A DNA stretch of 44,208 nucleotides, taken from the NCBI GenBank assembly GCA_947088865.1, contig CAMUHY010000022.1:1-44208 (forward strand), written 5' to 3'. Positions 43,536 through 44,208 of this stretch are shown in pieces. The notes below the pieces were generated by a model. The model did not search any database. It saw only the letters and a list, made by a program, of their open reading frames with translations, and was not told the origin of the DNA. The translations under genes were made by a program, and so were the position numbers. The stretch's first letter is position 1. Each line of letters opens with the position of its first letter. The DNA comes from an uncultured Eubacterium sp. (GTDB taxonomy: Bacteria; Bacillota; Clostridia; Lachnospirales; Lachnospiraceae).

Positions 43536-44208
43536 CTAAAAGTTAAGCAACTTATCTCGATAATACTCATATTGCTTTTGACGTGCTGCAATTTCGGCTG
43601 GAAGTCCAGTAGAAAGGTCGTTACATAAAGTATTAAAATGGTCAAGAATTTCTACAATGCACTCTTGTTCTTTAATTGGTGGAAGAGGAATAATTATATC
43701 TTTTAATTTATCTGGTGTTACTTCAATAACTTTCGTTCCATGTGCTAATTGTTTCTTTTGTTTATAAAAATTATTTGTATGAAAATAATATGATAAAAAT
43801 TTAGAATTTTGATTATGATGTATTATAGCTGTATGTCCACTAACTGCAATTTCATTATCACCTAGCCATGCAACACACTTACATACATCATCAATATTTT
43901 CACTTGTTATTGCCATAATAATATCATTTTTAACTGCTTTTTTTGATTTTTCAGCCACACTTTCAGAGATATTTTCAATAGTCTTATCCGCATAAACGCC
44001 AAATTTTGTATATATCTGTCCATAATGAATACAAGGAAAACCAAATTCAACAAAATCTTTTTTTTGAAAATTGCCACCCCTTGTTATTGTTGCAATATCT
44101 CCTAGTTTAACAAAGGCATAGCCAAACACATATTGTAAAAGTTTAATTATGGCTGGCTGGCTGGCTGGCTGGCTGGCTGGCTGGCTGGCTGGCTGGCTGG
44201 CTGGCTGG
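43536..44208 (-). CDS. hsdS: Type I RM specificity subunit, C-terminal half (partial)
   Basis: This frame is open through the right edge and ends at 43536. It begins inside a tetranucleotide tract read as repeating Ala-Ser-Gln-Pro, then IIKLLQYVFGYAFVKLGDIA, the usual junction into the second target-recognition domain. The domain ends with IIPLPPIKEQECIVEILDHF and the conserved GLPAEIAARQKQYEYYRDKL tail. HsdS chooses the DNA sequence for methylation and cleavage. The first recognition domain and hsdM lie beyond the window. A GTG at 44129 could start a half-protein but has no ribosome site, so the frame is read as the 3' part of a longer gene. Confidence 0.9.
   Translation of the reverse strand, partial: QPASQPASQPASQPASQPAIIKLLQYVFGYAFVKLGDIATITRGGNFQKKDFVEFGFPCIHYGQIYTKFGVYADKTIENISESVAEKSKKAVKNDIIMAITSENIDDVCKCVAWLGDNEIAVSGHTAIIHHNQNSKFLSYYFHTNNFYKQKKQLAHGTKVIEVTPDKLKDIIIPLPPIKEQECIVEILDHFNTLCNDLSTGLPAEIAARQKQYEYYRDKLLNF
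44151..44208. repeat. Tetranucleotide (GGCT)n tract within hsdS
   Basis: At least 14 uninterrupted GGCT units (58 nt) run off the window edge; the coding strand reads CCAG repeats. No codon in any frame of the repeat is a stop, but both alternative frames stop within 9 nt of its end (CCA TAA, and CAT AAT TAA). Slipped-strand changes in unit number would therefore switch HsdS between full and half length. The contig may end here because the repeat is hard to assemble. Confidence 0.9.

Follow-up and report, generated by a model that had tools for sequence, protein, structure and literature searches.

A frameshifting repeat behind a complete hsdS gene probably switches a Type I specificity subunit between two and three recognition domains

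A Type I restriction-modification operon of an uncultured Eubacterium sp. (Lachnospiraceae) probably carries a slipped-strand tract that switches its HsdS subunit between the normal form with two recognition domains (TRDs) and a fused form with three. The locus represents a variation on phase-variable Type I systems that are already known. This reading draws on the anatomy of the operon, the arithmetic of its reading frames, the recurrence of the layout with differing repeat units, and selection on the third module.

Organization of the operon and position of the tract

The window is the whole stretch of 44,208 nt that was analysed, contig C22 of the genome; features of the operon are collected in Table 1. 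It terminates within a (GGCT)n tract, for which Tandem Repeats Finder gave 59 nt of period 4, 14.8 copies and 100% matches, the unit number being a lower bound set by the contig end. This bears out the minimum of 14 perfect GGCT units given in an earlier note on this sequence. Runs of 16 bases of the GGCT unit numbered 11 in the window compared to 0.00 expected from 100 dinucleotide shuffles. In the whole genome (G000, 48 contigs, 3.29 Mb), (GGCT)5 was present at two sites only, the end of C22 and the start of contig C19, in the same orientation. C19 opens with 55 nt of the tract, which indicates that the assembly broke inside it, between the two contigs. Ends of 55 and 59 nt look to us like the product of a de Bruijn assembler with a k-mer of 55 that went once round a four-base loop, and the real tract therefore probably exceeds 58 nt.

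Table 1. Positions of operon features in the window
Feature	Position	Strand	Remarks
Third HsdS module (hallmark helix, TRD3, conserved-region helices)	43536..44149	-	Pfam Methylase_S E 1.2e-17; AlphaFold; Foldseek
Hallmark start of third module, KLLQYVFG	44122..44144	-	Common to third modules of other genera
hsdR	39449..42727	-	TIGR00348 E 1.7e-167, EcoR124_C E 6.4e-62; direction as other hsd genes
Conserved-region DNA	43554..43607	-	85% identical to end of module 2 on C19
(GCCA)n / (GGCT)n slipped-strand tract	44150..44208	-	At least 14.75 units, running off the contig end; codes Pro-Ala-Ser-Gln repeats
TAATTAA, stops for both non-fusion frames	44143..44149	-	Directly 3' of the tract

On the minus strand of C19, hsdM (TIGR00497, E 2.3e-223) is followed by an HsdS frame that begins with ATG and runs for 411 codons up to the contig end, with two Methylase_S stretches and then Pro-Ala-Ser-Gln repeats. 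On the minus strand of the window, the tract is followed by a third Methylase_S module, a 68-aa ORF, a PIN-domain gene and hsdR. Joined via the common tract, the two contigs encode HsdM, HsdS and HsdR together, a complete Type I set with hsdM and the first two TRDs on C19. Because two TRDs lie on the C19 side, the tract follows TRD2 rather than separating TRD1 from TRD2. Judged from the sequence, it sits after a whole two-TRD HsdS, past the second TRD and its conserved helix, and not in the central region where the earlier note had placed it. Relatives in which the tract lies inside one unbroken contig have the same gene order as the C19-C22 join.

The third module and module 2 share 42% identity, and the conserved-region DNA of the former (Table 1) is a possible site for TRD exchange. 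AlphaFold modelled the module with a mean pLDDT of 86.5 and a pTM of 0.82, placing a helix over the hallmark; linker residues 1-13 fell below pLDDT 50. The best-ranked PDB match in Foldseek was the Type I HsdS 1yf2, and 5ybb, 3okg, 1ydx, 2y7c and 7bst also matched at E below 1e-6. TM-scores by query length for these six entries ranged from 0.51 to 0.63, with rmsd of 3 to 11 A. Further matches were PacII S, Esub1, BsaXI and CamA.

The profiled coding-strand ORFs from hsdM to Imm7 were HsdM, HsdS, the third module, PIN, HsdR and Imm7 (the 68-aa ORF is outside this set), and neither a recombinase nor inverted hsdS copies were found among them. The third module lies in direct orientation, which is not the arrangement of an inverting or shuffling hsdS. 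The 68-aa ORF and the PIN-domain gene behind it (window 42751-43352, minus strand), between the third module and hsdR, form a toxin-antitoxin-like pair by layout; loci L209 and L210 have a different 304-codon ORF in this slot. SUKH-4 and Imm7 immunity-protein genes stand side by side at window 38327-39452, adjoining the restriction operon. Elsewhere in the window (20496-25863), the gene for a 1210-aa protein containing AAA and AAA_lid_6 stretches, three of each, adjoins one for a GH5 cellulase with a CBM_2 domain.

Relation to EcoR124-type systems

The nearest solved HsdS by sequence was that of EcoR124 (7bst), with E-values of 6.1e-24 and 1.2e-28. This match, the EcoR124_C domain in HsdR and a 12-bp TTEL repeat together give the operon the sequence marks of Type IC (EcoR124-like) systems. 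The TTEL repeat lies in the first conserved region of the HsdS (L009:721-758) and varies in copy number between loci; an xxEL motif in one to three copies was present in the first conserved region of 17 of 18 HsdS examined, the one without a match being G215. In this the gene resembles the Type IC systems EcoR124I and EcoR124-3, which have a TAEL-type 12-bp repeat. Their spacer repeat, between TRD1 and TRD2, has a unit divisible by three, whereas the GGCT tract frameshifts and comes after TRD2. An EcoR124-type spacer repeat, suggested previously with EcoR124I and EcoDXXI as models, is thus present in the gene, but as the separate 12-bp repeat of the first conserved region and not as the GGCT tract, whose 4-nt unit after TRD2 does not fit such a spacer. 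It is the TTEL repeat that corresponds to the spacer meant in the earlier note; the GGCT tract is a different element.

Reading frames and the proposed switch

On the coding strand the tract, (GCCA)n, is flanked by ...CAATTGT and TAATTAAAC... When n = 2 mod 3, the HsdS frame continues through the third module, for 204 codons beyond the tract. In the other two classes of n it ends 0 or 2 codons (within seven bases) past the tract. Computed for n = 12 to 27, fusion occurred only at n = 14, 17, 20, 23 and 26. Three features of a simple-repeat phase-variable hsdS are present: the repeat is perfect and in frame, its unit length is not divisible by three, and both alternative frames are closed by stops.

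Much of what had been claimed for the tract from the window alone held up. The downstream frame on the minus strand reads (Q-P-A-S)n, the Ser-Gln-Pro-Ala linker of the earlier note, and continues as an open frame in which Pfam places a Methylase_S domain, and the other two frames do meet a TAA at once or two codons beyond the tract. An hsdS gene with a frameshifting tract and three states was correctly recognized. Nor does any stop separate the tract from the first recognition domain, which had been named as grounds for refutation; the C19 frame is open into the tract. That the tract is in frame with the downstream HsdS half is true, but it holds for any such tract and is silent on the upstream frame, which is on C19. 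The products had been predicted as one full-length and two half-length proteins with a possible palindromic target; the frames give instead one three-TRD protein and two near-identical two-TRD proteins.

Slippage in living cells, which we infer, would change the unit number n of the GCCA tract. At n = 2 mod 3, read-through into the third module would yield a three-TRD HsdS; the remaining two classes would yield the ordinary two-TRD HsdS with a short Pro-Ala-Ser-Gln tail. The three-TRD subunit would then pair its modules anew (1+3 or 2+3), and an extra or different target might be methylated and restricted. Three TRDs in one open frame were found in seven relatives, while in this genome they depend on n. 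Modelling of one natural three-TRD protein (L264) by AlphaFold from a two-row alignment gave a mean pLDDT of 37.2, a pTM of 0.28 and no usable structure.

Recurrence in other genomes

The layout was found at 25 distinct loci, including the one described here, in 15 genera of one family and in a second family. The family sample comprised 397 genomes, this one included, of a family with at least 334 genera. With the TRD3 protein as query, 19 of them matched at E <= 1e-20. In 13 of these, again counting our own, the third module stood behind a simple repeat, the contig ended inside the repeat, or an N-run occupied that place (G222); in the loci examined from the other six the third-module hallmark was not seen. 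IMG/VR contigs supplied further loci to the 25 (V numbers are those given to loci on IMG/VR contigs; V330 and L523 are one and the same contig), and G416, from another family of the class, has a fused frame of 649 codons with a GAAC tract. G242 and V254, with 3579 bases of identical sequence, were counted as one locus; apart from these, no pair of flanks of at least 300 nt reached 90%.

The hallmark mostly reads [I/L]-K-L-[I/L]-Q-Y-V-F-G. A corresponding DNA pattern, with no repeat required, matched 6 of the 397 family genomes and 3 of 341 class genomes (own included); the narrower pattern used for the family excluded the leucine codon of our genome, and the broader one used for the class matched it. 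All nine genomes so matched had a tract at the hallmark. In viral_contigs, hallmark patterns matched 16 loci, six of them HsdS loci already counted. Because the other ten had no HsdS, the pattern alone is non-specific.

The frame could be read at 19 of the 25 loci. Seven are fused (G140, G390, G303, G416, V256, V264 and V518) and twelve are not (G029, G191, G242, G215, G282, G350, G048, V234, V238, V251, V255 and V257), the state of G029 being called from its contig C78 with 37 nt of upstream flank. The six outside this count are our own, G338, G154, G277 and V330, whose contigs end in the tract, and G222 with its N-run. Seven of 19 is about the one third expected for a random frame, in calls made on many draft assemblies where tract lengths may be wrong in places. 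Contigs end inside the tract at 5 of the 25 loci, and the G029 assembly is interrupted at this point as well. Such breaks make it easy to miss the fused form.

Repeat units and tract lengths

Five types of repeat, with units of 2, 4 or 7 nt and none a multiple of three, occupy the junction. Among the matches listed, GCCA was confined to our genome; GACA or its permutations were present at most loci, GAAC in G416, AG in G191 and V518, and ACGARCA in G215 and V234. (GGCT)5 was absent from the other 21 genomes of the genus, and a 22-base form of the tract from the other 396 genomes of the family sample. V518, with 33 nt of AG, is fused and G191, with 41 nt, is not, with 18 nt before and 11 nt after the tract identical. 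GACA loci with like flanks conform to the same frame rule: G390 (18 nt) and G303 (90 nt) are fused but G242 (38 nt) and V251 (62 nt) are not. These length differences are between genomes of different genera or IMG/VR contigs, with one genome per species. The G390 tract, shrunk to 18 nt and in frame, may be fixed.

Such repeats were also sought on their own. A scan of genome_contigs for (AGCC)7 gave at least 120 stretches, and of the 80 loci examined (phmmer, 16 HsdS seeds) one, L097, had an HsdS, its AGCC tract being in the hsdM frame and not in hsdS. In viral_contigs there were 94 stretches of (GCCA)6 and 108 of (ACAG)8, with 80 of each listed. HsdS was present at 2 of 158 listed entries, L337 (the contig of V256) and L330; in this test L327 was entered twice, and L301 and L314, also among the listed stretches, had already been counted as V251 and V264. 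Most such tracts in viral_contigs thus lie outside hsdS among the matches listed. No HsdS was recognised among the listed ORFs at CCGA tracts in G025 and G327, which were matches of a reversed control pattern.

Several tracts of other kinds were observed. At L247:3189-4588, two overlapping frames of 269 and 254 codons, each with one HsdS conserved-region motif, have a GCAA tract of 15 units between them; this may be a central-region switch such as the earlier note imagined. At L097:2328-5349 (uncultured Actinobacillus), an N6_Mtase (hsdM-like) frame at the contig end begins with the AGCC tract and has hsdS behind it, which resembles the hsdM phase variation of Haemophilus as given in the accessible part of PMC7394358. 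AGCC tracts inside acyltransferase frames at L115:3-1097 (a Lachnospiraceae MAG) and L091:3441-5273 (Vibrio) are possible cases of phase-variable surface modification.

Selection on third modules and TRD exchange

In all 22 loci tested (G338, V330 and G222 were outside the test), both non-fusion frames stop no more than 27 nt past the tract; the loci share ancestry, and the conserved pair of stops does not represent 22 independent events. Among all pairs of 19 third modules, the 14 closest had identities of 0.74 to 0.96 at second codon positions and 0.40 to 0.67 at third positions. For G029 and V238, both now out of frame, the values were 0.85 and 0.41, respectively. This pattern of codon positions indicates that the third modules are under purifying selection.

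TRDs were compared across positions with 55 domains (18 first, 18 second and 19 third), taking 38% identity or more as a relative. For 11 of the 19 third-module TRDs, another locus had a relative in position 1 or 2; for the other eight there was none in this set. Our TRD3 was 72% identical to position 2 of V234 and 67% to position 1 of G390, and our TRD1 was 50% identical to position 3 of G303. Conserved-region DNA was 82-85% identical between modules over about 50 bp, a stretch that could serve TRD exchange between them. A 13-row alignment of whole and partial HsdS placed third modules on second modules and was discarded.

Discussion

Simple repeats in Type I systems have precedents. About 10% of these systems are said to carry simple sequence repeats, according to the portion of PMC7394358 available, and the movement of TRDs and genes with three TRDs are described in the accessible text of PMC3077401. 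In NgoAV of Neisseria gonorrhoeae, as far as the available parts of PMC9577141 and PMC7394358 go, a poly-G tract in hsdS determines whether a truncated (208 of 410 aa) or a fused HsdS is made. There too a frameshifting simple repeat within hsdS alters the number of TRDs translated. However, that switch is between half and full HsdS by a unit of one G, with the tract between TRD1 and TRD2, while here it would be between two and three TRDs, with two TRDs upstream of the tract and units of 2, 4 or 7 nt. A parallel in the protein is JHP1422 of H. pylori (JHP1422/JHP1423, M.Hpy99XV), likewise an HsdS with three consecutive TRDs, which methylates two different sites: TRD1 with TRD3 gives AAGN6TAAAG, and TRD2 with TRD3, or TRD3 alone, gives AAGN5CTT (PMC3936762). 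Its TRD2 and TRD3 are identical, unlike ours, and the part of its description available (PMC3936762) has no simple repeat switch, whereas here the third TRD is joined via a repeat linker.

The PADLOC S-subunit profile PDLC03126 has 690 positions, a length that suggests that HsdS longer than two TRDs are present in databases. Atack et al. 2020 (FASEB J) is reportedly, by its title, a survey of repeats in Type I systems. A two-to-three TRD switch may already be in print there. Three-TRD HsdS are attributed to that work in the accessible portion of PMC12429846, and the portions available of PMC6158711, PMC13076061, PMC11475388 and PMC12707154 do not mention such a switch.

Other explanations can be set against the two-to-three TRD switch. 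From the window alone, with its one TRD after the tract, one might place the tract between TRD1 and TRD2 and have it switch full-length and half-length HsdS as in NgoAV; this is extremely unlikely, given that the C19 side already has two TRDs with their conserved regions and that relatives on unbroken contigs show the same order. We give next to no credence to the idea that C19 and C22 are not neighbours and have the tract in common by a coincidence of assembly. The join was deduced from two contig ends, but the genome has no other tract ends, the two match in orientation, and joining them restores hsdM-hsdS-hsdR. It is also very unlikely that the third module, when out of frame, is translated separately by re-initiation to work as a free half-subunit. 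An HsdS with a single TRD can be functional, presumably by dimerizing, as with TRD3 alone of JHP1422 (PMC3936762), and there is a GTG at 44129. That GTG, however, is the Val codon of the QYVFG hallmark, which is GTG in only three of the nine listed matches and GTA or GTC in six, and no conserved start of its own was seen in the third module. Since the GTG is not conserved, we think that the module is made only as a fusion.

Two alternatives concern what the third module is for. The fused protein could be inactive, so that the tract would turn the enzyme ON (two TRDs) and OFF (three TRDs) with no change of target; an extra module could disturb M2S assembly, and activity of the fused form is something we infer here. 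Purifying selection and the relatives at positions 1 and 2 for 11 of 19 modules nevertheless suggest use in recognition, a plain OFF switch needs no third TRD and the three-TRD JHP1422 is active (PMC3936762), which together make this alternative unlikely. The module might also serve as a silent TRD store from which positions 1 and 2 are supplied by recombination, with the tract incidental. TRD families common to different positions, conserved-region DNA of 82 to 85% identity over about 50 bp between modules and the known movement of TRDs within hsdS (in the accessible text of PMC3077401) are in keeping with a store. Five frameshifting repeat types at one junction, with stops in both other frames, would be left unexplained, and as the whole explanation a store is distinctly unlikely, although it could act alongside the switch.

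Preferring the two-to-three TRD switch, we can offer a wider reading only tentatively, as one that is rather doubtful in its entirety. Through the tract, a third TRD on a flexible repeat linker would be gained or lost; pairing as 1+2, 1+3 and 2+3 in the fused protein would mark several targets at once in one cell. The TAEL repeat in the first conserved region would set the spacing, and third-position TRDs would be a testing ground, trading domains with positions 1 and 2. In the cited literature, as far as its available portions go, phase-variable methylation takes the form of ON/OFF switching, recombination between hsdS copies, or half versus full HsdS. The three-TRD switch opens to testing the way in which a Type I enzyme makes use of three recognition domains. 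If the recurrent third-TRD switch is true, sibling cells would differ in methylome and in phage resistance while the original specificity is kept.
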